Of a stretch of 64,000 bases of DNA, positions 17,709-30,655 are shown in pieces; positions within the stretch are counted from its first letter, which is position 1; each line of letters begins with the position of its first letter. The position numbers and the translations under genes are program-made. The DNA is from Fretibacterium sp. OH1220_COT-178 (GTDB taxonomy: Bacteria; Synergistota; Synergistia; Synergistales; Aminobacteriaceae), in contig NZ_RQYL01000005.1 of the NCBI RefSeq assembly GCF_003860125.1, positions 124,001-188,000 of the forward strand, read 5' to 3'. A model generated the notes under the pieces. That model saw only the letters and a list, made by a program, of their open reading frames with translations, did no database searches and was not told the origin of the DNA.

Positions 17709-18073
17709 CACGAACCAACCCCGTTTCCTTGCATTTTCGTAAAAAATGAATGGCAGGCAGATAGAAGCAGTATAACCCAAAAGGGGCGTTTTTTCAGTGC
17801 CGTTTGGGGCTTGAGTCGCCTCCGCGTTCGTCCGATACAAATTACATGTGGTGCTCCGCCTATTGAAGTGTTACAATCATGTTAAAATGCAAGGAAGTGC
17901 CCTTGAAAGAGAAAGGGATGCATAAGAGCGTGTCGGCCCCTGGCTCTTCAGGGGCACGTGGGTGATGGTCTTCCGCTGTTGGGATGGATCGACGGGTACT
18001 GAAACTAAGGCCCGGAAAGCCTGAGTCGGCGGAAGCCACGATTGTGGTGTATGTTTGTTGGGGGGTACGGGAA
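17709..18073. other. Divergent intergenic region hisS/pilB
   Basis: 365 bases between divergent genes, clearly less GC-rich in the first half. A 7-bp hairpin is at 17936-17955 (GCCCCTG / CAGGGGC). AT-rich hexamers around 17862-17885 could be promoter parts, but no pair has good spacing. I looked for c-di-GMP riboswitch signatures and found none. Confidence 0.4.
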
Positions 18074-20341
18074 ATGGCAACGTCGAGGAGACGGATAGGA
18101 GACATCCTGCTCGAGGCGCGCAGCATAACGCCCGAGGATCTTGAAAGGGGGTTGGCTGTCAAGGCCTCGGAGCCCGACAAGCGTCTGGGTACGATCTTGA
18201 TCGGGCTGGGCATCCTGACGGACCGTCAGGTGACGGAGGCTCTGGGTCTCCAGTTCATGCTCCCCGTGGTCAACGTGGGGGAGTACCTCGTCAACGTCAC
18301 GGCCCAGAATGCCCTGCCCCGTGAGCTCCTCGAGCGGCTGAACGCCTTTCCCCTGGAGTTTCAGAGCAACGATTCGGTCCTGCTCGTCGCGATATCCGAC
18401 CCCCTGGACGCCGCGACCCAGGCTGAGTTGCGCGAGAACTCCTCCCTGAAGCTCCGCTTTGCGCTGGCCCCCGCGGAGGAGATCCGTTGGGCGCTCAGCG
18501 GCGGGCAGAGCGCCCCGGCGGCGGCTCAGCCCCCGCAGCCGGCCCCTTCCCCTGCCGCAGCCGACGGGCGGGACGGGGCTGTCCCCATCGAGCTTCCGGC
18601 GCCGTCGCGCCCGGAGCCTCCCAAGGAAAGTCCCGTGGAGACCTCGGACGACACCTCCCTCATTCCGGCCTTTGCCGCCCTCCACGCGGCTCAGCCCAAA
18701 TTGGGGGACATCCTGGTTCAGGCGGGCGTCATCAACAACGAGCAGCTGACCCGGGCCCTTCAGGTTCAAAGGGATTCCGGAAAGAGGCTGGGCCAGATCT
18801 TCGTCTCGGAGGGGATCGTGTCCGAGGTTCGGCTTGCCGAGGCGCTCTCGACGCAGCTGAAGCTGCCCATGTTCACCCTCACCCGCTACCGCCCCATGCC
18901 GGAGGCCATCAAGATGGTGCCCCGGGCGGTCGCGGAGCGGCTGACCCTCATCCCTCTCGCGATCGTGGAGGACGACCTGCTGCTGGTGGCGATGGCCAAC
19001 CCGCTGGACCTGCTGGCCCAGGACGAGGTCCGGATGCTCACGGGCCGGAACCTGAAGGTGGGGATCGCGACGACCACCGATATCCTCCAGAACCTGGACC
19101 GCCTCTACAACCTCCAGGGCAGCCTGGAGGACGCGATCGTCGAGGTGGACCCCAGCCTGGAGGAGAACAAGGAGATCGACTTCGACTCCAGCGCCGACGA
19201 CGCCCCGGTCATTCAGCTGGTCAGCAATCTGCTGCAGCAGGCCGTGCGCGAGTCGGCCTCGGACATCCACGTCGAGGTCTATGAGAAGTCGGCGCGCGTG
19301 CGCTTCCGCGTGGACGGCCAGCTCTACACCGCGTTCGACTATCCCGTGGCGCTGCACCCCTCCGTCTCCGCCCGCCTCAAGATCATGAGCGGCATGGACA
19401 TCGCGGAGAAACGCAAACCGCAGGACGGCCGCATCCTGATCCGCGTGGACGGCCGGCGCATCGACCTGCGCGTCAGCGTCCTGCCCACGATGAACGGGGA
19501 GAAGGTCGTTCTGCGTATCCTGGACCAGGAGAGCTCCGCCGTGGGGCTGGACCGCCTGGGGCTCGAGGTCGACGACATGGAGAAGATCGAGATGTTCTGC
19601 ACCATGCCGTGGGGCATCATGCTGGTGACGGGTCCCACGGGAAGCGGAAAGTCGACGACGCTCTACTCCATGCTCCAGAGGATCAATCAGCCGGACGTCA
19701 ACATCATCACGGTCGAGGACCCGGTGGAGTTCTCCGTGGCGGGGATCAACCAGGTCCACGTCAACGAGAAGGCGGGCCTGACCTTCGAGTCCGCCCTGCG
19801 CTCCATCCTCCGCCAGGACCCCGACAAGGTGATGGTGGGAGAGATCCGCGACCAGAAGACCGCGCAGATCGCCATCCGCGCGGCCCTCACCGGGCACTTC
19901 GTGCTCTCGACCCTGCACACCAACGACGCGCCGAGCGCCGCCACCCGTATGATCGACATGGGGGTCCCGTCCTTTTTGGTCTCGGCGTCGCTGTCGGGCG
20001 TTATTGCCCAGCGCCTGGTCCGGCGCCTGTGCCCCCTGTGCCGGGAGGAGTACGAGCTGACCGCCAACATGTGCGAGACGCTGAACGTACCGGAGGGGAC
20101 CCACGCGTTCCGGCCCCGCGGCTGCAACGAGTGCCGGAACGGCTACAAGGGGCGGCGCGGCATCTACGAGATCATGGTGGTGGACGACGAGCTGCGGCGC
20201 ATGATCCTGGACGGGGTCAGCAACATCCAGCTCCGTGCGGAGGCCATCAATCGCGGGATGAAGACGCTGCGCCAATCGGGCATCAACGCGGCACTGGGGG
20301 GACACACCTCGCTGGAGGAGGTCTTCGCCACCACGCTTTAA
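18074..20341 (+). CDS. pilB: Type IV pilus extension ATPase PilB
   Basis: A 755-residue GspE/PilB-family hexameric ATPase that powers pilus assembly at the inner membrane. Two N-terminal MshEN-type domains are visible (about residues 5-65 and 205-270), each made of repeats beginning RxG or KLG/RLG and ending near a Gln, the layout known to bind c-di-GMP in related ATPases. A Pro/Ala-rich linker lies between them. The ATPase domain carries Walker A GPTGSGKSTT near residue 520, and the zinc-binding Cys set CPLC ... C ... CNEC is near the C-terminus. ATG 18074 is preferred over an upstream in-frame ATG at 17984 that lacks family similarity. First gene of the pilB-pilT-pilC-pilin set. Confidence 0.93.
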   Translation: MATSRRRIGDILLEARSITPEDLERGLAVKASEPDKRLGTILIGLGILTDRQVTEALGLQFMLPVVNVGEYLVNVTAQNALPRELLERLNAFPLEFQSNDSVLLVAISDPLDAATQAELRENSSLKLRFALAPAEEIRWALSGGQSAPAAAQPPQPAPSPAAADGRDGAVPIELPAPSRPEPPKESPVETSDDTSLIPAFAALHAAQPKLGDILVQAGVINNEQLTRALQVQRDSGKRLGQIFVSEGIVSEVRLAEALSTQLKLPMFTLTRYRPMPEAIKMVPRAVAERLTLIPLAIVEDDLLLVAMANPLDLLAQDEVRMLTGRNLKVGIATTTDILQNLDRLYNLQGSLEDAIVEVDPSLEENKEIDFDSSADDAPVIQLVSNLLQQAVRESASDIHVEVYEKSARVRFRVDGQLYTAFDYPVALHPSVSARLKIMSGMDIAEKRKPQDGRILIRVDGRRIDLRVSVLPTMNGEKVVLRILDQESSAVGLDRLGLEVDDMEKIEMFCTMPWGIMLVTGPTGSGKSTTLYSMLQRINQPDVNIITVEDPVEFSVAGINQVHVNEKAGLTFESALRSILRQDPDKVMVGEIRDQKTAQIAIRAALTGHFVLSTLHTNDAPSAATRMIDMGVPSFLVSASLSGVIAQRLVRRLCPLCREEYELTANMCETLNVPEGTHAFRPRGCNECRNGYKGRRGIYEIMVVDDELRRMILDGVSNIQLRAEAINRGMKTLRQSGINAALGGHTSLEEVFATTL

Positions 20342-20354
20342 CGGGCAACAAAAG

Positions 20355-20386
20355 GACGCCCCTCGAGGGGGCGTCGCATTTTATTT
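20355..20386 (+). terminator. Hairpin with T-rich tail between pilB and pilT
   Basis: An 8-bp stem (GACGCCCC / GGGGCGTC) with a 5-base loop, followed by GCATTTTATTT. Placed in the 61-base gap between pilB and pilT, it may partly terminate pilB transcripts and lower pilT expression. Confidence 0.6.
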
Positions 20387-20402
20387 CATGGGAGGTCTTG
20401 CC

Positions 20403-21488
20403 TTGCCTATCAGCTTGAGATCCCTGTTGGACGAGGTCATTGCAAGGGACGCCAGCGACCTGCACATCGGCGTGGGGGTCCCCCCGGCGATACGGATCGA
20501 CGGCCAGCTTCGCCACGTCGAGGGGGCGGGGGTGCCGACGGGCGCCGACATCGAGAAGGCCTTTCTGGAGGTGCTGTCGAAGGGCCAGTACGAAATCTTC
20601 AAGGCGTCGCGGGAGATGGACTTCAGTTTCGCCCACAGGGCGGCGAACGGCAAGGAGGCGCGTTTTCGCGGCAACTGCTTCCAGGAGGCCCACGGGCTGG
20701 CGGCCGCCTTCCGTCTGATCCCGGCCTACATCCGCTCGATCGACGATCTGGGGATTCCCTCCGTATTGAAGGAGATCGCCCGCAAGCGTCGCGGGCTCTT
20801 TCTGGTGACGGGGCCCACGGGCCACGGCAAGAGCACCACCCTGGCGGCGATCATCAAGGAGATCAACGCCACCCGTTACGAGCACATCATCACAATCGAG
20901 GACCCCATCGAGTACGTGCACCGTTCGGACCGCTGCCTGGTGCACCAGCGGGAGGTGGGGTCGGACACGGCGAGCTTCGCCGAGGGCCTGAGGCGCGCCC
21001 TGCGCCAGGACCCGGACGTGATCCTGATCGGCGAGCTTCGGGACCTGGAGACCATCTCGGCGGCGGTCACGGCAGCGGAGACGGGGCACTTGGTTCTGGG
21101 CACGCTCCACACTCAGGACGCGGCGCAGTCCATCGACCGCCTGATCGACGTCTTTCCGCCCCACCAGCAGCAGCAGATCCGGGTGCAGCTGGCGTCGGTC
21201 CTGGTGGGCATCTGTTCGCAGCAGCTCATCCCGAAGGGGACCACCGGCGGACGGATCTGCGCCACGGAGCTCCTGATCGCCAACCCTGCGGTGCGCAACT
21301 GCATCCGGGAAGGAAAGATCAGCCAGATCAAGACCGTGATCCAGACGGGGGCCGGCATCGGGATGCACACGATGGAGCAGAAGCTCTCGGAGTTTGTCAA
21401 AAACAGAATACTGCCCCTGGACGCTGCTTTGGCCTACGCCTACGATCCCCAGGACCTTCAGAGGATCCTGATGATGCAGGCGGGCTAG
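20403..21488 (+). CDS. pilT: Type IV pilus retraction ATPase PilT
   Basis: A 361-residue PilT ATPase that depolymerises the pilus. Visible features: Walker A (GPTGHGKSTT), Asp box and Walker B (DPDVILIGELRD), and the His-box region with GTLHTQDAAQSIDRLIDVFP. The AIRxNLRE-like C-terminal signature appears in diverged form. TTG 20403 is preferred because GGAGGT lies 6 bases upstream; an ATG at 20388 would place that site inside the gene. Confidence 0.93.
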   Translation: MPISLRSLLDEVIARDASDLHIGVGVPPAIRIDGQLRHVEGAGVPTGADIEKAFLEVLSKGQYEIFKASREMDFSFAHRAANGKEARFRGNCFQEAHGLAAAFRLIPAYIRSIDDLGIPSVLKEIARKRRGLFLVTGPTGHGKSTTLAAIIKEINATRYEHIITIEDPIEYVHRSDRCLVHQREVGSDTASFAEGLRRALRQDPDVILIGELRDLETISAAVTAAETGHLVLGTLHTQDAAQSIDRLIDVFPPHQQQQIRVQLASVLVGICSQQLIPKGTTGGRICATELLIANPAVRNCIREGKISQIKTVIQTGAGIGMHTMEQKLSEFVKNRILPLDAALAYAYDPQDLQRILMMQAG

Positions 21489-21515
21489 CGCGGCCCGGAC
21501 GGATTGGAGGCCCAC

Positions 21516-22757
21516 ATGAATTTCAAGTACAGAGGCCGTTCCGCGGACGGCAGCGTCGTCGAGGGGCAGGTGGATGCGGACACCCAGGATATGGCCCTGG
21601 ACATCCTGAAGCAACGGGGCGTTCTGGTTCTGGCGATCAACGCGGCCGGGTCCGGAGGAGATGCAGGCAGCGTCTCGCGGCGCTCCACCGAGGGCATGTC
21701 GCTCTTGGACAAACTGAAGCGTATCGGGACGGTGCCCGGGAAGACCAAGATGGTCTTCTTCCGCCAGCTCGCCACGATGATCAAGGCGGGGCTGAGCCTG
21801 ACCATGGCGCTCGACATCATCGCGGAGCAGGAGAAGAACCTGATCTTCCAGGACGTCCTGCTGGACGTCAAGGCCAGCATCGACCGGGGTGTCTCCCTGA
21901 GCCAGGCCATGAAGCAGCACAAGGAGTTCAACACCATGATGATCTCGCTGGTGCAGGCGGGCGAGGAAGGGGGGCTTCTGGACGAGTCCCTGGAGCGCGT
22001 GGCGAGCCTGCTGGAGAAGCAGGCGGCCCTGAGGGGCAAGATCAAGTCCGCCATGTTCTACCCCACCTTCGTCATCCTGTTCGCGATCGGCGTGGTGGTG
22101 GTCTTCATCGCGTTCATCCTGCCGAAGTTCAAGCAGGTCTTCGCGGGGATGAACATCGAGCTGCCGATGCTGACGCAGATCATGTTCGAGGTGGGGGACT
22201 ACTGCCAGGAGAACTGGAAGCTGATCGTGGGGGTGACGTTCGCCGTGATCACGGCCCTGGTCTGGATGATGAAGAGTCCTGTGACCAAGCCCTTCATGGA
22301 CCGGCTGAAGCTCAAGCTGCCGGTGGTCAAGAGCCTGGTGTTCAAGTCCTCCATGGCCCGGGCCACCCAGACCCTGGCGTCCCTGGTCACTGCGGGTGTG
22401 CCCATCCTGAGGGGGCTCGAGATGTCGGAGGAGGTGGCAGGCAACGACGTGATCCGCGTCGGGTTCGCCGACTTGCAGGCCGCGGCCAAGGCGGGCCTGC
22501 ACTTGGGCGACGCCGCCAAGCAGGCCAAAGTGTTTCCCCCTTTGGTGTGTCAGATGATGCGCATCGGCGAGGAAACGGGCCACCTGGACGACATGTTGGA
22601 GCGCGTGGCGACTTGGTACGACCAGGAGCTGGACGAACAGATCAAGGCCATGACCTCTTTGATGGAGCCCATCATGATCGTGATCGTGGGCGGAATCGTG
22701 GCCCTGATCGCAATGGCCATCTTCGGCCCCATCACAGCGGCAATTTCGCAGTTCTGA
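21516..22757 (+). CDS. pilC: Type IV pilus inner-membrane platform protein PilC
   Basis: A 413-residue GspF/PilC-family platform protein. It starts with the family hallmark FKYRGRSADG (YxxxxxxG type) and has two GspF domains, each with a cytoplasmic helical bundle. Membrane segments are near residues 185-210, 235-255 and 385-410. The repeated motif MIKAGLSLTMAL / LVTAGVPILRGL marks the two domains. GGAGG precedes ATG 21516. It connects PilB/PilT motors to pilin assembly. Confidence 0.93.
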   Translation: MNFKYRGRSADGSVVEGQVDADTQDMALDILKQRGVLVLAINAAGSGGDAGSVSRRSTEGMSLLDKLKRIGTVPGKTKMVFFRQLATMIKAGLSLTMALDIIAEQEKNLIFQDVLLDVKASIDRGVSLSQAMKQHKEFNTMMISLVQAGEEGGLLDESLERVASLLEKQAALRGKIKSAMFYPTFVILFAIGVVVVFIAFILPKFKQVFAGMNIELPMLTQIMFEVGDYCQENWKLIVGVTFAVITALVWMMKSPVTKPFMDRLKLKLPVVKSLVFKSSMARATQTLASLVTAGVPILRGLEMSEEVAGNDVIRVGFADLQAAAKAGLHLGDAAKQAKVFPPLVCQMMRIGEETGHLDDMLERVATWYDQELDEQIKAMTSLMEPIMIVIVGGIVALIAMAIFGPITAAISQF

Positions 22758-22807
22758 TGGAGTGATGTCTGTTCGGATAAAGTCAGTGGATTGGGTCTTA
22801 GGACCTA

Positions 22808-22835
22808 TTGCATTTGATGCAAAAATCCCTATACT
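22808..22835 (+). promoter_or_regulatory. Candidate promoter for pilin gene
   Basis: TTGCAT (22808-22813), a 16-base spacer, TATACT (22830-22835), 53 bases before the pilin ATG. The region is locally AT-rich, in contrast to its flanks, which suits a strongly expressed structural gene with its own promoter. Confidence 0.45.
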
Positions 22836-22888
22836 TATTGTCATCAAGCCCTAGGTATCAAGGGCTAAATTTAAAGGAGGAATTTTCC

Positions 22889-23374
22889 ATGAATATGCGT
22901 AAAGGTTTCACCCTCGTCGAGCTTCTGATCGTCATCGTCATCATCGGTATTTTGGCGGCTGCTATGTTGCTTTCCAGCGGTTCGGCGACAGCTTCTGCAG
23001 AGGCCTCCAACGTCGTCAGCAACCTGCGTAGCCTGAAGGCCGCTGCTCTGATGTTCTACATGACCAGCATGGATGACGTCGAGGCTGAGAACGGTAAGGT
23101 GCCCGCAAAATTTGATTTTGAGAAACACTTGGCTATCTATACCGATAACCCCAGCAAGTACAAAAAGACGGAGTATGCTTTGGTTTCGGATACTAACAAG
23201 AAATGGTATGTGGGTTATGACCTGAGCAAGGTCCCCAGCAGCACGAAGGATGAGGTGGCGGCAAAGCTGATCGGTAAGAGGAAATCGCTGGGGCTTATGG
23301 GCTCGGCGGCTTTGGGTAGCGCTCCTAAAGCCGAGTACAACAACGAAAACGTTATATGGATGATCGCCCGTTAG
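22889..23374 (+). CDS. Type IV major pilin (prepilin)
   Basis: A 161-residue prepilin. It has the short basic leader MNMRKG, cleavage expected between Gly6 and Phe7, Glu5 of the mature protein, and the long hydrophobic N-terminal helix (TLVELLIVIVIIGILAA). The C-terminal globular part has no cysteines, so no disulfide-bounded D-region. An excellent AAAGGAGG ribosome site lies 8 bases before the ATG. The gene is less GC-rich than its neighbours, typical of pilins. It ends with a strong terminator. Confidence 0.93.
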   Translation: MNMRKGFTLVELLIVIVIIGILAAAMLLSSGSATASAEASNVVSNLRSLKAAALMFYMTSMDDVEAENGKVPAKFDFEKHLAIYTDNPSKYKKTEYALVSDTNKKWYVGYDLSKVPSSTKDEVAAKLIGKRKSLGLMGSAALGSAPKAEYNNENVIWMIAR

Positions 23375-23538: not shown

Positions 23539-24331
23539 TCCTGGCTGAAAAATATAAACAGAGCTTTTCTCCCGGTGTCAAATTACCCAGAGCTTTGTGA
23601 GGTTTGACCCAGTTGTAGTCATTGACGAAACGGGCCAGTGATTTTCTGCGAAGCTCCGGAGACTCGAAATGCTCCTTATCGTGCCACATCTCCATCAAGG
23701 TCCGTATGACCCGTTCCGCCATTGGTCTTCGGTGTTGCCGGGCGCGTGAACTTCTGCCCGATACCCTTTCTCATGCACAGCTCCGCAAAAGCGTGATGCT
23801 CCGGATTCCCTTGAAATTCTTTGCCGTTGTCCGTATAGGCTGTCTCAATCGTATAGGCGCATTCCTCCAGGACTTGACCCGGAAAGCTCCCTGCGGAAGC
23901 GGCTGTCTTGTCCGGCAGGATTGCCGCATAGAGCTCACGGCTGTAGTCGTCGATCGCCACGAAAAGATAATCTCGCGGGTCGGTATTGACCTGTCCCTTC
24001 AGTAAAGGCAGACGCTTGCAGTCAAGGTGAAGCATTTCTCCCGGATAGCTTTTGTTGTAGCGTTTGGCCTCCTTTTTCAATCTGGCTTCAATTGTCTTTC
24101 TACTTTGGCAAGACGTTTCATGTCCCAGGCCAGAGTGCGGAAACGAGCATTACAGCTGTTGTGAATAGAGAAATCCCGTTTGTGGCCTCGTGCCAAAATC
24201 TTATAGATGGTCGGACGGGAGACGTGATATTCCTCGGCCAGCGAAGCAACGCGTATGTGTTCTGTGTGATGCCTCCGGTAAATCTCCTCTCGTTGCTGGG
24301 GTGTCAGTTTTGTGCGTTTGTGGACGTTCAT
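23531..24331 (-). pseudogene. IS481-type DDE transposase, two frameshifts
   Basis: Three consecutive frames together make one transposase. The N-terminal helix-turn-helix part (24331-24077: LTPQQREEIYRRHH, SRPTIYKIL) runs out at a stop near 24080. The DDE core follows (24080-23676: LHLDCKRLPLL, FVAIDDYSREL, AYTDNGKEFQ). The C-terminal part (23722-23531: AERVIRTLMEMW ... FVNDYNWVKPHKAL) is in another frame. Loss of one A near 24088 and a small deletion near 23725 explain the two shifts. The element is therefore unable to make an intact transposase. Confidence 0.85.
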
Positions 24332-24415: not shown

Positions 24416-25741
24416 TCAGAACTTGCTCTTCCGGGTCACCCACCAAGGGGCCATGGACGTGTCGGCATGGCCATGGCCCCACAGTTCCCAGAATGTCGCA
24501 AAACAGCTGTTCAATCGGGTCACGAAGGCAAAAAGAGGAAAAAGGGGCAGCCACACGGTCAGTTTGAGATCTTCGCGAAGGCGCTCCGAGAGCATCAGCA
24601 CTGAGGAGATCCAGATAAACAAGGTCAGCGTCAGGTAGAAAAGGTAGACCAGAACCATCAGGGACACAGCCACCCGGATGGGAAAGGCGATGAAGAGGTA
24701 GACGGTATAGATCAGAAGCAGGATGGGCATCATGATCTGAAACATCAATCCGGACAGGATTTGATAGAGGAAGTTGGGCCACCCCAGGATCCGTGGGGAA
24801 AAGGCTTTGCGGTGCTTTCTGAAATAGATGAAGGAGAGGTCCCCGTCCCAGCGCAGGCGCTGCCGCAGAAAGCCCAGCATCGACACGGGCACGTCGGTGT
24901 GCCCTATCGCCTCGGAGTCGAAGACGATGCGCATCTTTTTCCCCTGGCGCCCGAAATAGCTCTTGACCCGCAGGGTCAGGTCCAGATCCTCGGCCGTTCC
25001 GGCATCCCATCCCACGATCAGCTCCAGGATGGAACGCCGGAAGATGCCGAACGCGCCCGAGATGTTGTTCACCAGGTTGAACTCGCTGAGCCCGGTCTTG
25101 CTGGCGTGGATGGACAGAAAGTATTCGATGGCCTGCATGCGGGTCACGATGCTCGCCCGGACGTTGCGGACGCGCAGGGAGCCGGCTACGCACGCGACGG
25201 AGGGGTCCTGGAAATGCCGGGTCGCCCGCTCCACCATGTTGTTGTCGAACGAGGTATCGCCGTCCAAAGCCATGATGACTTTTCCTGTGGAGAATTTCAG
25301 CCCGGTGTTCAGGGTGGATACCCGCCCGCCCCTCTGCCATTTGGGGACCACGATGATGCTGCGATTTGCGTGGGCCGAGACGAAACCGCGCATGGCCTGT
25401 GCGGCATCGTAGGTGTCCCGGTTCTGATCGGCACCGTCGATCACCACGACGAGCTGGATCGAGCCGGGGTAGATCTGCGTACAGAGCGACCGAATCGTCT
25501 TGCGGATCTCCGCCCCCTCGCTGTAGCAGGTGACGATGCAGCTGACGGACGGGTACCAGGCGGTACGGTCCCGCTCCCCCCATCGGCGGATGGTCGCGCG
25601 CACCACGCCCAGGAAGACCATCAGATAGACGGGTACCTCGAAGAACAGGACGAAGGGGATAAACTTCCAAAGCACCGTCATGTCGGCCCGGACGATGGGA
25701 GTGAGGAAATTCCAAGAAAAAAGCTCCGACAGAGCCTCCAT
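24416..25741 (-). CDS. Membrane-bound family 2 glycosyltransferase (exopolysaccharide synthase)
   Basis: A 441-residue processive GT2 synthase resembling cellulose/PNAG/alginate synthases. Two N-terminal membrane segments (about 24-50) precede the cytoplasmic GT-A domain with DGD at 160-162, the ED acid pair at 251-252 and QRLRW at 294-298, the signature of processive synthases. Three to four hydrophobic segments follow (about 325-425). The substrate sugar is unknown. The gene starts 6 bases after the stop of the zinc-ribbon/GGDEF-like gene and is the last gene of the operon before the IS element. There is no PilZ domain, so c-di-GMP control, if any, must come from a partner protein. Confidence 0.88.
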   Translation of the reverse strand: MEALSELFSWNFLTPIVRADMTVLWKFIPFVLFFEVPVYLMVFLGVVRATIRRWGERDRTAWYPSVSCIVTCYSEGAEIRKTIRSLCTQIYPGSIQLVVVIDGADQNRDTYDAAQAMRGFVSAHANRSIIVVPKWQRGGRVSTLNTGLKFSTGKVIMALDGDTSFDNNMVERATRHFQDPSVACVAGSLRVRNVRASIVTRMQAIEYFLSIHASKTGLSEFNLVNNISGAFGIFRRSILELIVGWDAGTAEDLDLTLRVKSYFGRQGKKMRIVFDSEAIGHTDVPVSMLGFLRQRLRWDGDLSFIYFRKHRKAFSPRILGWPNFLYQILSGLMFQIMMPILLLIYTVYLFIAFPIRVAVSLMVLVYLFYLTLTLFIWISSVLMLSERLREDLKLTVWLPLFPLFAFVTRLNSCFATFWELWGHGHADTSMAPWWVTRKSKF

Positions 25742-25747
25742 GGCGTC

Positions 25748-27151
25748 CTACCCCTTGTCGCCCAACCGGGCGCTCAGCTCGAAGAGAAGGTCCTTCGCCC
25801 CAATGATTTTCTCCCTGCCCTCCTGCCGAAAATCGTCCGGAAAGGAGCAGGAGGCGACCCCCATCTCCAGGCGCGGGGCGTCCTCGACCGAGACCAGATC
25901 CCGAAGGGACTCCAAGCGCTTGAGAACGTTTCCGGCCTGGGCCCCGGAGGTTCGGGGCAGAAGGAACCAAAGGGTGTCCAGCGTGGAGCGCGACGTCACG
26001 TCCGTCAGGCGCAGCAGCTCCTTCAGACGCGAGACGATGGCGTCCATCAGCTGGACCATGCGGTGGTTGCCCAGGGCGTCGGCTATGGACTCGAGGTTGA
26101 CGAAGCGCAGCACCAGCAGGGTGAAGGTCTGCTCCGGGTAGCGCCGCACAAAGTGCAGGTTCCATCCCAGAAATTGCTCGAAGTAGGGGAATGTGACGTT
26201 TCCCAGCCTGTCCAGCAGGGCATAGGCAACCTCCATCTTGCCCACTCGTGCGGAGATGCGTCCCTTGTCGGTGATGCGCCAGGAATGAAAGCTGCGGGGA
26301 ACGAGCTCCCCCGGAAGGCTGGCCGTGCCGCACCCGTAACAGGAGGCGAGGACCTGGGGCTCGACGAAGTTGCTCCTGCACGTCGAACAGAGCATGGATT
26401 CCAAGGGGTGGTCGTAGTCGCTGCCTAGATGCCTCAGACGAGTCCGGCAGTGCATGCAGCGCATTCCCTCATTCTTCAGCAGGTCCTCCATCGCCGAGAT
26501 CCGGCCGCAGGTGAAGCAGTGCACCAGCTCCTTGGTCGCTATCTCGATGCTGTGGCATTCGGGGCACACATCGATGAAGTTCAGGTGCGGCGAGTTGCAC
26601 TTCGGACAGACGCGGATACGGGCGACGAGGCGTCCCGACGCGATCTGGCCCTGGTCCTGCATCTCCTGGATCCAGTGATAGGCATCCATTCCGTCGTCCG
26701 CGAAGCATTCCGCAAGGGGGTACCCGTAGATCGCCGGCGTCAAGGCGTCGGGGACGGGCTCCAGTTCCCTGTCCCTGCGCGAATAGAGCCACCCCAGCAA
26801 TCGGAAGTCCGCCCCGGAAAGGGGCGCCTCGTGGTCGATCTCCTCCAGAACGTCCAGGATCGGACGGGCGGCGGAGATGGCCTCCTCCGGATCGAGAACC
26901 GGCCCGTCGGCGAGGGCCGACGCTCGGGGAGGCTGCTTGCAGGTGAAGAAAACGGGGGCCGCAAAGGTGTGCGGATTCCGGCGTATCGCCTCCGCCGTCC
27001 TCAGAGCGAGTTCCGGGTCGTTTCCGTCCAGGATGAAGGCGTTGGCGTCGCCGTCGAGGAGGTCCGAGGGCGAGTTTGCCTCGCGCAGCCACTCGCGAGC
27101 GGGGAGCACCGCGTGGGCGTCGAGTTTTAAACGGGCAAAACGCGGTTCCAT
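25748..27151 (-). CDS. Zinc-ribbon protein with degenerate GGDEF domain and I-site
   Basis: 467 residues, no signal peptide. Residues 1-105 look like an atypical receiver fold. Residues 182-275 hold five CxxC pairs (CPKC, CPEC, CFTC, CMHC, CSTC, plus CYGC), probably several zinc ribbons; the arrangement recalls TackOD1-type metal-binding proteins, though that name is tentative. Residues 320-465 resemble a GGDEF domain, but the active-site position reads TLDTL (390-394), so it should not make c-di-GMP. RLTD at 381-384 lies exactly five residues before it, the spacing of the inhibitory RxxD I-site of diguanylate cyclases. Predicted c-di-GMP receptor for the adjacent synthase, like PelD. Its ATG is 1 base after the HlyD stop. 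Confidence 0.75.
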   Translation of the reverse strand: MEPRFARLKLDAHAVLPAREWLREANSPSDLLDGDANAFILDGNDPELALRTAEAIRRNPHTFAAPVFFTCKQPPRASALADGPVLDPEEAISAARPILDVLEEIDHEAPLSGADFRLLGWLYSRRDRELEPVPDALTPAIYGYPLAECFADDGMDAYHWIQEMQDQGQIASGRLVARIRVCPKCNSPHLNFIDVCPECHSIEIATKELVHCFTCGRISAMEDLLKNEGMRCMHCRTRLRHLGSDYDHPLESMLCSTCRSNFVEPQVLASCYGCGTASLPGELVPRSFHSWRITDKGRISARVGKMEVAYALLDRLGNVTFPYFEQFLGWNLHFVRRYPEQTFTLLVLRFVNLESIADALGNHRMVQLMDAIVSRLKELLRLTDVTSRSTLDTLWFLLPRTSGAQAGNVLKRLESLRDLVSVEDAPRLEMGVASCSFPDDFRQEGREKIIGAKDLLFELSARLGDKG

Positions 27152-27152
27152 A

Positions 27153-28247
27153 TCAGAGCCCCTCCGTTTCGTTTACGAATCGCTTCAAAATCCCGGGAAG
27201 CCGGACTCCCCAGCGAACGATGAGGGGCAGTCCCTCGATCAGGTATTCGGAGGGAATGGGGGATATGGGCGTCAGAAGGACGCGTATCGTTCTCTTGGAT
27301 CCGGCAAAGGTCATGAACTCTCCCGGTATCGCCTGGGTTTCGGTCGGGAGCCGGTCGATACGGGCGGGAAGGGAGACCTTTCCGGGAAAACGTACCTCGA
27401 CCATGGCGTCCTTGCGGATGAAGGGCAACGCCTCGTTGTCTGCGAATACGACGATGGAGATGGAATCGGGGTCGACGATCGTGGCCAGCGGCACCCCCTG
27501 GGTCAGGGTCTCCCCGGGAGTGACGCCGATATGGAGAATTTTCCCATCCACGGGACTGATGACTTCGAGGGGAACGACCTGAGCCTCCAGGATCTCGATC
27601 TCGGCCTCCATCTGACGGCGCTCGGCACGCATGGTGTCCAAGTTGCGCTGCGCCTGAAGCAAAAGAGCTCTGTGCTCCTCCCGTTCCCGGATCAGATCCG
27701 CCCTGGCCCGGTCCTCCGCCTGGCGAGCCAGCCGAAGATCGGCCTCCGTCGCAGCCCGATTGCGCAGAAGCTCCTCAACTTTTTTCCTGTCCTTCTCCGC
27801 CTGATTCAGGACCTCGGAGGCCAGAGCGATTGCCCCTCCCGACACTGTCGGACGGCCGGGAAGGACATCTCCGGAAAGCCCCATGGCCTGCAGTCTGGCA
27901 CGGAGAAGGGCGAGACGCTCGTACTTCGCATCCAAAGCATCGTCCTCGACGTGAAACAGGATGTCGCCCTTCCTGACCTCGCTGCCCACCGGGAAGGGGA
28001 CCTCGATGATCGTTCCCGTCTTGGGCATGGTGATCGATGTCCTCTTCATTAGAAGCGAAGCGGGAGAGTTGACGACGAACCACGGCAATACGGATCGATA
28101 AAGGAAAAAAATCAATGGGCTGAAAACCAGAAACAAAATGACGTACCAACGCAACCAGGGAACCACCCGTTTTCCCGGCGCGTATTCCACCCGTACATCC
28201 TTCCGGATCGTGGCTTTGCCGCGATCCGGACCTAACGAAAAATTCAT
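27153..28247 (-). CDS. HlyD-family periplasmic adaptor
   Basis: A 364-residue membrane-fusion protein. A cytoplasmic N-terminal tail is followed by one membrane helix (about 34-58), a first biotinyl-lipoyl half (TGTIIEVPFPVGSEVRKGDIL), a long coiled coil (about 110-215, rich in Glu/Arg/Leu), the second lipoyl half (VISPVDGKILHIGVTPGETL) and a beta-barrel domain. This would bridge the inner-membrane synthase and the TolC-like channel. The start at 28247 is set by AAGGAGAG 8 bases upstream. Similar adaptors serve both type I secretion and polysaccharide export; no ABC exporter ATPase is present here, favouring the latter. Confidence 0.88.
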   Translation of the reverse strand: MNFSLGPDRGKATIRKDVRVEYAPGKRVVPWLRWYVILFLVFSPLIFFLYRSVLPWFVVNSPASLLMKRTSITMPKTGTIIEVPFPVGSEVRKGDILFHVEDDALDAKYERLALLRARLQAMGLSGDVLPGRPTVSGGAIALASEVLNQAEKDRKKVEELLRNRAATEADLRLARQAEDRARADLIREREEHRALLLQAQRNLDTMRAERRQMEAEIEILEAQVVPLEVISPVDGKILHIGVTPGETLTQGVPLATIVDPDSISIVVFADNEALPFIRKDAMVEVRFPGKVSLPARIDRLPTETQAIPGEFMTFAGSKRTIRVLLTPISPIPSEYLIEGLPLIVRWGVRLPGILKRFVNETEGL

Positions 28248-28291
28248 GTCTTCTCTCCTTAGCTCGTCAACAAGTCGGCAGGCTTCTGCAG

Positions 28292-30655
28292 CTACTTGGA
28301 CATCAGAATATAGTCCTCCCGAGACTGAACGATCAGTCCGGCGAAGTTCGACAGTCCCTCGGTTCCGATGCTCTCCCGAAGCCTCTGCATACGTTTCTCG
28401 AAGCCGTCCCGGCCGGCTTCGAAATAACTCTCCGACCGCGACAGTCCCTTCTCCACACTCTGCACCAGGGCAAAGCGCAATCGCGGATGCGCTCGGCATA
28501 TGGCCTTGAATCGATCTGCCACCGCATCCATGTTCGTGGAATAGATCATGACGGCAAGGTCCGAAATTCCCATTTCCACCAAGGCTCCGGCCATTTTCTC
28601 CCCCAGCTCGCCCTCGAGGTAGCGGGGGTGGACAACGAGCTCGATGGGGCGTCCTACGACGATGAGGGCCATTCTGAGGGTGTCCAGCAGGTGCGTCGAA
28701 AGGGTGTCCCGATTCCGCTCCGCGTTCGGCAGCATGTCGGGTTCCAGATCCAGATGAACGCTCCGGAAGGGGAAGGGGGCGAGAAAACGAAGCACGCCCT
28801 CCAGGCCCTCGCGGGCCTCAGGCAGAATCCAGGCGGGATCGCCCAGCAGAAGATCCACGATGACCCCCTCCCGGGAAGCGTGACGCAAAAGCGCCCGAAG
28901 CCCTTCGGCCCCCTCGGAGTTGCGCAGTCCCTGAACTTCCTGGGGCGAAAACGAGAGGAGAATTCGGTCAAAGCCGTCGCGCTTCAGGCGTGCAAGGGAT
29001 TCCGTCCGTGTCGCCTCGCTCAGGAGGGGGGCGGCACGCCAGGCATAGACGGCTTTACGGTTCTGAAGGGGTTTGGGTGCCGGTGCAGTGGGAGCATCCT
29101 CTGGCTTGTTCCGATTCGCAAGGGCCATCTCCGGACTCTGCAGCGGTTTGACGGACTTGGATGCCGGATGGGGTGAGGATGACGGCATCCGTCCCTCCCC
29201 TGACTGCGGCATGGCAGCGGCCGGAGCCCTTGGGGGAAGAGAGGGAAGCTCCGGGTGCGGAAGGGGCGGAAAGGCCAGCAACAGGTCGCGGCGCTCCGTG
29301 TCCCCGAGGGGGAAGACGCGCGATTCGTCCTCGTCTCCCTCGGAGGCAAAAAAGGCCAGCAGCTCGATATAGGTCTGAAGTGCCAGGGATTCCGCATCGA
29401 TGACGTCCATTGCCGTACGCAGCAACGCGTAGCGTCCTCGCTGCAGCTGCTCGAAGGTGTCGCCGGGGAGGGACTGGAAGCGCAGCGTCCGTTCCCTGAC
29501 GTTGGCCTGGGCGGCCTCCAGGCGGGTTGTGCCGACGCGCAGGGACTCCCGCGCGTAGTCGTTCCACAGCAGCTGTTCCTCGAAGTTGTCCTGAAGACGC
29601 ATCTCGGTGCTGACGACGTCCCACCGTGCGCGCTCGAGGTCGGACTGGGCGGCCTCCCGCGCTCCGTCCGACCGGGAGGAGAGGGAGCCGAACGGCTCCC
29701 TGACGCTCAATCCCACATGGGCTCCCGCCCCCCAGGTCCCCGGGAAATCCCGGGCCGCCGTCAGGCCCATATCGAGGTGGGCATCGCGGTCGTTCCGCTT
29801 CGCCAATCCTGCGATCTCCTCGTGGAGACGGACCGCCTCCTCCCTTCCGCGCAGCTCGGGGTGGCCGGACAAGCGCAGGGCCAGCTCGGACATCCCGGGC
29901 AGAAGGGGTCGCTCCACCCTCTCCGGAAGATCCCACCTCCGGCCCGTTGCCGCCGCGATCGTTGCAAGGGCGCGGGAGACGTTGAGCTTCGAGGCGACGA
30001 TATCCCTTCGCACCATATCGAAGGCCGAGGCGAACTCCAGGAGGTCGGAGTCCAGGAGCAGGTGTTTTCCCGCCCGTTCGGAGAGAATGCCCAGGACCCG
30101 CGCCTCGTCCGCCAGGAACGTCTCCAGAATGGGCCGGCGTTTTCCCTCCGACCACAGCACGGCATAAGCCTTCCGCAGCGCAAGAAGATTGTTGTAGCGG
30201 ATCAGCTCCGAGCGGTACCGGCTCTCCGTCCGCGCCAGATCCGCCCTTATTCGCTCTATTTTCTGCCGCGTCCATGTGCCCAGCAGGGGGAAGGATACCC
30301 CGACCGTTCCGCTGAGCTTGCCGTAGGCGTGACGTTCGTCGTCCGTCGCCGAGAGAGGCTCGTCGCTATAGCCGTAGGTGACCCCCGCAAAGAGGCGGGG
30401 GGAGAGGCGCTCGGCCTCCACCTGCAGGATATGTCCGTCACGCGCCAGGGCGGCCAGGGCCGCGAGCGCCTCCGGTCCGTCGCCGATCCCAGGTTCGAGC
30501 TGCTCGAGAGGGGGCAGTTCCCTCCGATCGGAGAGGCGGGGGGCGGCCTCCGTTCCGGTTTCCCCTGCAAAGGCGCTCTCCGCAAAGCACAGACAGGCAC
30601 AGAAGCAGAACAGGATGGCTTGTAACGCCGAAGCTTTCTTGTTCATTTCCGACAT
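28292..30655 (-). CDS. TolC-like outer-membrane protein fused to TIM-barrel-like domain
   Basis: 787 residues with a signal peptide (1-30, ending SAFAGE). Residues about 60-450 resemble TolC/outer-membrane efflux proteins: long amphipathic helices, a paired repeat structure, and GVSFPLLGTW / GLSVREPFGS strands placed like the two beta-barrel contributions. A Pro/Ser/Ala-rich linker spans about 470-530. The last 254 residues (from about 534) form a TIM-barrel-like unit with alternating strands (RILLSF, VIVDLLLGD, VHLDLEPDML, LVVHPRY, AVMIYSTN). HLDLEP at 634-639 could hold a glycosidase acid. The start at 30655 has GGAGG 9 bases upstream. First gene of the four-gene operon. The fusion is unusual; the hydrolase role is an inference. 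Confidence 0.8.
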   Translation of the reverse strand: MSEMNKKASALQAILFCFCACLCFAESAFAGETGTEAAPRLSDRRELPPLEQLEPGIGDGPEALAALAALARDGHILQVEAERLSPRLFAGVTYGYSDEPLSATDDERHAYGKLSGTVGVSFPLLGTWTRQKIERIRADLARTESRYRSELIRYNNLLALRKAYAVLWSEGKRRPILETFLADEARVLGILSERAGKHLLLDSDLLEFASAFDMVRRDIVASKLNVSRALATIAAATGRRWDLPERVERPLLPGMSELALRLSGHPELRGREEAVRLHEEIAGLAKRNDRDAHLDMGLTAARDFPGTWGAGAHVGLSVREPFGSLSSRSDGAREAAQSDLERARWDVVSTEMRLQDNFEEQLLWNDYARESLRVGTTRLEAAQANVRERTLRFQSLPGDTFEQLQRGRYALLRTAMDVIDAESLALQTYIELLAFFASEGDEDESRVFPLGDTERRDLLLAFPPLPHPELPSLPPRAPAAAMPQSGEGRMPSSSPHPASKSVKPLQSPEMALANRNKPEDAPTAPAPKPLQNRKAVYAWRAAPLLSEATRTESLARLKRDGFDRILLSFSPQEVQGLRNSEGAEGLRALLRHASREGVIVDLLLGDPAWILPEAREGLEGVLRFLAPFPFRSVHLDLEPDMLPNAERNRDTLSTHLLDTLRMALIVVGRPIELVVHPRYLEGELGEKMAGALVEMGISDLAVMIYSTNMDAVADRFKAICRAHPRLRFALVQSVEKGLSRSESYFEAGRDGFEKRMQRLRESIGTEGLSNFAGLIVQSREDYILMSK

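Follow-up and report, generated by a model that had tools for sequence, protein, structure and literature searches.

We examined a four-gene operon in a window of 64,000 nucleotides (positions 124,001–188,000 of contig NZ_RQYL01000005.1) from the 2.86 Mb genome of the Synergistota bacterium Fretibacterium sp. OH1220_COT-178. The four open reading frames (ORFs) occupy positions 24,416–30,655 of the window, all on the minus strand, in the order TolC-TIM fusion (triosephosphate isomerase-type barrel), HlyD adaptor, zinc-ribbon/GGDEF protein and family 2 glycosyltransferase (GT2) synthase, with gaps of 44, 1 and 6 bases. The ORF coordinates reproduce the order, strand and spacing given in an initial annotation made from the letters alone, and Pfam matches agree with its domain calls; the TIM part is recognized as a barrel by AlphaFold, and the 'zinc ribbon' corresponds to the named Pfam domain TackOD1 (PF18551).

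Gene 1 (28,292–30,655, an ORF with a ribosome-binding site) encodes a TolC-like outer-membrane factor (Pfam OEP, E = 4.4e-6) that starts with a signal peptide (residues 1 to about 30), its sole hydrophobic stretch being residues 6–33. The TolC part (about residues 30–455; 29,291–30,568) matches PF02321 in two stretches, is conserved in the family alignment and is joined by a Pro-rich linker to a C-terminal barrel (28,295–29,056). A sequence search of the fusion against the PDB returned nothing, and a PHROGs search nothing of use. AlphaFold confidently predicts the C-terminal part as a (beta/alpha)8 barrel (predicted local distance difference test score, pLDDT, 95.4), for which Foldseek retrieves glycoside hydrolases (GH) of families GH20, GH18 and GH10 (best E = 2e-8, template modelling score about 0.6). 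In this predicted fold, all residues that are invariant in the alignment, namely D636 and E638 after strand 4, H676 (strand 5), M703 (strand 6), S733 and E735 (strand 7) and Q777 (strand 8), sit at C-terminal strand ends, as in a glycosidase-like active site; of 89 aligned rows, 88 or 89 have each of D636, E638, H676 and E735. In some Pseudomonas, the barrel is encoded by its own gene, the product of which has a signal-like N-terminus. The natural reading of the model would be a periplasmic glycosidase. Assignment to a named GH family was rejected, as no Pfam match worth keeping was found in 31 members and the fold matches are common to the three families above. Gene 2 (27,153–28,247) encodes the HlyD-family periplasmic adaptor (Pfam HlyD_3, E = 1.3e-11), identified also by family alignment and, from hydropathy, carrying one N-terminal membrane helix (residues 28–60).

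Gene 4 (24,416–25,741; Pfam Glycos_transf_2, E = 1.5e-18) has the motifs of a processive GT2 synthase (D102, D160xD162, E251-D252 and Q294xxR297W298), with one N-terminal and several C-terminal membrane helices. All 142 aligned rows, some of which are repeat loci of one genome, keep the core Asp, DxD, Asp and QxxRW; the Glu of the ED motif is kept in 138. TackOD1-linked GT2s fall into a single clade (95/90), outside which lie PgaC, IcaA, NodC and the GT2s of GH18-deacetylase-GT2 fusions. Such fusions, with GH18, polysaccharide deacetylase and GT2 in single proteins, were observed at loci L204 (1802–5251) and L206 (1907–5209), and the GT2s that lie closest to the TackOD1-linked clade without belonging to it include theirs.

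Gene 3 (25,748–27,151) encodes a predicted cytosolic protein, with neither membrane helices nor a GAF domain, in which Pfam, alignment and a structure model delineate a weakly receiver-like N-terminus, TackOD1 and a degenerate GGDEF domain. TackOD1 (residues 114–293; 26,273–26,812; E = 1.4e-58), the only one encoded in the genome, scores 198 bits against a curated cut-off of 32, and its Cys/His motifs are invariant (the Cys residues in 31 rows). The GGDEF-like domain (residues ~300–440; 25,832–26,254; Pfam GGDEF, E = 4.1e-7) can be aligned to PleD and other cyclases, and a structure search with its AlphaFold model (pLDDT 89.5) retrieves GGDEF domains; PF16963 (PelD_GGDEF) matches 5 of 31 family members. 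TLDTL replaces the GGDEF motif, and the I-site RxxD is present (R381-D384). Among 106 distinct family members (141 alignment columns, numbered by the window protein), the GG[DE]EF signature of active diguanylate cyclases is kept in none, and the Asp that binds metal in true cyclases is lost as well. Only four columns are invariant, F324, R337, R381 and D384, the last three being I-site residues. WspR holds cyclic di-GMP (c-di-GMP) through R242xxD245 together with R198 from a neighbouring domain (PMC2270323), and its spacing of 44 residues from R198 to R242 equals that from R337 to R381. Because R337, the counterpart of WspR R198, and RxxD are invariant at this same spacing, selection appears to keep a complete two-sided I-site; invariance of the second arginine further suggests that a c-di-GMP dimer probably bridges two domains, and so would link two gene 3 proteins. 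The predicted c-di-GMP receptor of the initial annotation is thereby strengthened. c-di-GMP, the bacterial 'settle down' signal, could be supplied by the eight other GGDEF proteins of the genome.

Homologues of the third protein occur in 32 of 188 Synergistota genomes, and at each of the 13 inspected loci of this phylum the four genes stand in the same order. The system extends well beyond Synergistota: when one genome from each species was scanned with the third protein, 128 relatives were recovered, and among the best 80 loci, 46 have the order TackOD1-GT2-TolC/TIM-HlyD, 15 the order TolC/TIM-HlyD-TackOD1-GT2 and 11 the order TackOD1-GT2-TIM-HlyD, the remainder being mostly variants or cut by contig ends. 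The gene order on which the initial annotation had staked its reading is thus conserved, uniformly in Synergistota and in two arrangements elsewhere. Cultured carriers include Pseudomonas, Stutzerimonas, Marinobacter, Vreelandella, Ralstonia and Nitrosomonas, with Halomonas-type loci also in the scan; contigs of metagenome-assembled genomes (MAGs) with the cassette are assigned to Desulfobacterota, Acidobacteriota, Planctomycetota, Bacillota and Cyanobacteria, although some bins may be wrong. Two 6-kb contigs labelled Oscillospiraceae and Methanomethylovorans (L062, L063) bear cassettes close to those of Synergistota and are probably misbinned. Conservation across phyla means that the gene set is not a chance assembly. 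Tree distances of GT2, TackOD1, HlyD and TIM correlate at r = 0.85–0.96 over 73 loci and the window (permutation maximum 0.17), with the adaptor and TIM trees following the GT2 tree at r = 0.96, a correlation that vertical descent alone would also raise; the patchy distribution over phyla argues for transfer of the cassette as a block. The cassette is therefore a real, mobile unit. In a Synechococcus lacustris MAG (L119, 4029–12,592), it adjoins a typically cyanobacterial gene, apparently acsF of chlorophyll synthesis as judged by eye; its GT2 groups with Pseudomonas despite this neighbour, which probably reflects recent transfer.

The scan was seeded with the window's third protein and is biased towards its own kind, so a separate sample of 398 evenly drawn Pseudomonadota genomes was searched with TackOD1 as the sole criterion. 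The Pfam cut-off was passed in fifteen genomes (16 loci), and GT2 lies directly beside TackOD1 at all 16 loci; one genome is the Pseudomonas at the centre of the sample, already known to carry the cassette, without which the count is 15 of 15. A trio of TackOD1, GT2 and HlyD is found on plasmids of Plesiomonas and Rhodobacteraceae, and a more distant form of the trio in Phyllobacterium, Aminobacter, Methylocystis, Roseibium and Palleronia (plasmids). One Rhodobacteraceae plasmid has the operon TackOD1-GT2-HlyD-galE (L133, 8902–13,524); galE follows HlyD on this plasmid only and is a hint that this lineage may draw on a galactose or GalNAc precursor.

Given the observed gene set and its co-inheritance, the identified domains, the conserved residues and the predicted fold, the operon likely represents an undescribed type of synthase-dependent exopolysaccharide machine, gated by c-di-GMP like Pel, exporting through HlyD and TolC and equipped with a tethered periplasmic hydrolase. 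In the mechanism that we infer, the inner-membrane GT2 would polymerize a nucleotide sugar and extrude the chain, while the TackOD1 protein on the cytosolic side would keep it in check. Binding of c-di-GMP to the I-site of the catalytically dead GGDEF domain, probably as a dimer bridging two domains, would turn the synthase on; the chain would then pass by way of HlyD to the TolC-like channel, where the tethered TIM barrel may trim or clear polymer in the periplasm. PgaB, PelA, BcsZ and AlgL have such a trimming or clearing role in their own systems. The synthase-dependent path of GT2, adaptor and channel proposed in the initial annotation is supported in that the gene set is conserved, with export and the polymer themselves predictions from sequence.

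We found no earlier description of the four-gene set in the open-access literature (subscription journals and preprints lay outside this scope), and TackOD1 appeared there in one paper (PMC5847659). If the proposed machine is real, it adds a type of exopolysaccharide system that is missing from a 2020 survey, which covers only cellulose, acetylated cellulose, poly-N-acetylglucosamine (PNAG), Pel and alginate (PMC7112194), and that sits in common Pseudomonas and Stutzerimonas species whose biofilm polymers are heavily studied. It would also give TackOD1 its first role, define a predicted family of c-di-GMP receptors with a defined, mutable site, and exemplify, within one operon, the GT2-HlyD-TolC export route that has been proposed, so far without validation, for cyanobacterial cellulose (PMC12430437).

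Several findings weigh against such a machine. The processive glycosyltransferase motifs of synthase-dependent systems are present throughout, and a TolC-like channel is co-encoded with the HlyD bridge, but the TIM protein lacks the TolC part in about 11 of the 80 cassettes (Pseudomonas-type and Synechococcus), and only TackOD1, GT2 and HlyD are seen in some lineages (Plesiomonas, Rhodobacteraceae); the TolC partner must there come from elsewhere. No GGDEF domain is detectable in Rhodobacteraceae M382 and alphaproteobacterial relatives. Finally, an adjacent GT2 is absent at all six archaeal TackOD1 loci sampled, all from Halobacteriota (L154–L158 among them); TackOD1 must therefore have another partner in archaea, and its role there may differ from that in bacteria.

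The regulatory part of the scheme could be explained otherwise, if the third protein were no c-di-GMP sensor and its pseudo-GGDEF served only dimerization or as a scaffold, TackOD1 being controlled by other means such as a phosphorelay. The alphaproteobacterial relatives, which carry a true receiver on TackOD1 and no GGDEF, fit this explanation, as does the weakly receiver-like N-terminus of the window protein; however, a pure scaffold is not expected to retain exactly the three c-di-GMP-contacting residues in 106 of 106 members while the rest vary, and in PelD and PssE a remnant of this kind does bind c-di-GMP. We regard a scaffold as unlikely. A diverged PNAG (Pga) operon, with a PgaC-like synthase, substitute export parts and poly-beta-1,6-GlcNAc as product, would account for PgaC_IcaA being the top NCBIfam match to the GT2 (131 bits), for the resemblance of the barrel to GH18/GH20 hexosaminidase folds and for the presence of deacetylase/GH18 fusions among the nearest outside GT2s. 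The score nevertheless lies far under the equivalog cut-off of 422.3 bits, E. coli PgaC is only 23% identical, PgaC and IcaA fall outside the TackOD1-linked clade, and neither PgaA, a PgaB/IcaB deacetylase nor PgaD is encoded among the four genes or in the inspected cassettes, which makes this origin quite improbable. The statement of the initial annotation that the parts are not PNAG homologues holds for membership of the PgaC clade and means only that, as the GT2 is a distant PgaC relative.

It is also very unlikely that HlyD and TolC-TIM form a drug or protein efflux set that stands by chance beside a GT2 for protein or lipid glycosylation; of these possibilities, the initial annotation had itself raised drug efflux and protein glycosylation. 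Members of both families also work in efflux and type I secretion, and the HlyD protein reaches 75 bits on RND_mfp (cut-off 94.9). Yet ATP-binding cassette (ABC), resistance-nodulation-division (RND) or major facilitator superfamily (MFS) pumps are absent from the four genes and none was seen in the inspected cassettes, the adaptor and TIM trees track that of the GT2, and processive QxxRW in every GT2 row speaks for a polymerase over a protein-glycosylation enzyme.

Comparison with known systems agrees with the initial annotation in placing the exopolysaccharide operon outside Pel, PNAG, alginate and cellulose in their usual arrangements. Pel of Pseudomonas aeruginosa and Bacillus cereus has a hydrolase in the operon, as predicted here, and a degenerate GGDEF receptor whose RxxD I-site is intact, as in the candidate receptor here; in Pel, this receptor controls the glycosyltransferase after translation (PMC7112168). 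Pel differs in its PelF (GT4) with PelG, in its PelB/PelC and in a PelD that is membrane-bound and contains GAF, whereas here the third protein has TackOD1 and no membrane helices, the only glycosyltransferase is of family 2, export would run through HlyD-TolC, and the cassette has no further conserved gene that could be PelG. Degenerate GGDEF remnants that bind c-di-GMP are required for polymer synthesis in both PelD and PssE. Listeria PssA-E and Bacillus Yda pair a GT2 synthase with such a receptor, as the operon would (PssE, dissociation constant 0.79 uM; PMC4125290), but are Gram-positive systems without HlyD, outer-membrane channel or TackOD1. The cyanobacterial Xcs system (XcsA-XcsB-TolC) resembles the operon in combining a GT2 with an adaptor like HlyD and a channel like TolC; in a model that its authors describe as lacking validation, the three together export polysaccharide as a tripartite complex (PMC12430437). 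Unlike the operon, it has PilZ on XcsA, partly scattered genes, an endoglucanase (XcsC) and a synthase of the cellulose clade. PNAG systems (PgaABCD/IcaADBC) share a processive GT2 of the PgaC/NodC/HAS superfamily, from another clade and under another regulator. For cellulose, neither BcsA-PilZ, BcsB nor BcsC was found, PilZ being absent from the operon, with two weak matches elsewhere in the genome; for alginate, none of the four proteins has the PilZ, tetratricopeptide repeat or porin features of Alg8, Alg44 and AlgK/AlgE. The Sinorhizobium Bgs system for mixed-linkage glucan also has a GT2 beside an HlyD-like adaptor and is activated by c-di-GMP. The pSymB pair that we take to be BgsA (GT2) and BgsB (HlyD-like) scores only 39 and 15 bits, respectively, on the profiles built here, and lacks TackOD1. 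Archaeal REC-TackOD1 proteins share the output domain PF18551, with a function described as obscure (PMC5847659), but have neither GGDEF nor, at the six Halobacteriota loci, an adjacent GT2.

Roseibium and Palleronia carry a true receiver domain on TackOD1 in place of GGDEF. On alphaproteobacterial plasmids (L135, 6086–10,160; L137, 5903–10,120), receiver-TackOD1, GT2 and HlyD are consecutive and lie near Hpt proteins and sensor kinases; these loci would be a phosphorelay-fed version of the same module. Tentatively, and somewhat short of probable, TackOD1 may serve generally to control the polymerases of one GT2 clade, with inputs exchanged by domain swap: most bacteria would use a pseudo-GGDEF bridged by a c-di-GMP dimer, some alphaproteobacteria a phosphorylatable receiver, and the machine would export a chemically uncharacterized polysaccharide via HlyD-TolC across several phyla.

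Around the operon, no Rfam match to a c-di-GMP riboswitch or other RNA was found upstream, and promoter and terminator scans gave fewer matches than in shuffled sequence. A fifth conserved cassette gene was rejected, flanking genes being shared mainly by close relatives. Just downstream of the GT2 gene lies an integrase-type transposase fragment (rve-like, judged by eye; 23,676–24,080, minus strand), with no intact element seen. The operon also adjoins pilB, pilT, pilC and a type IV pilin gene (17,984–23,374, plus strand), and TackOD1 has been reported from thaumarchaeal pilus loci. A functional link was rejected; because this neighbourhood is not conserved in other cassettes, the pilus genes are taken as incidental.

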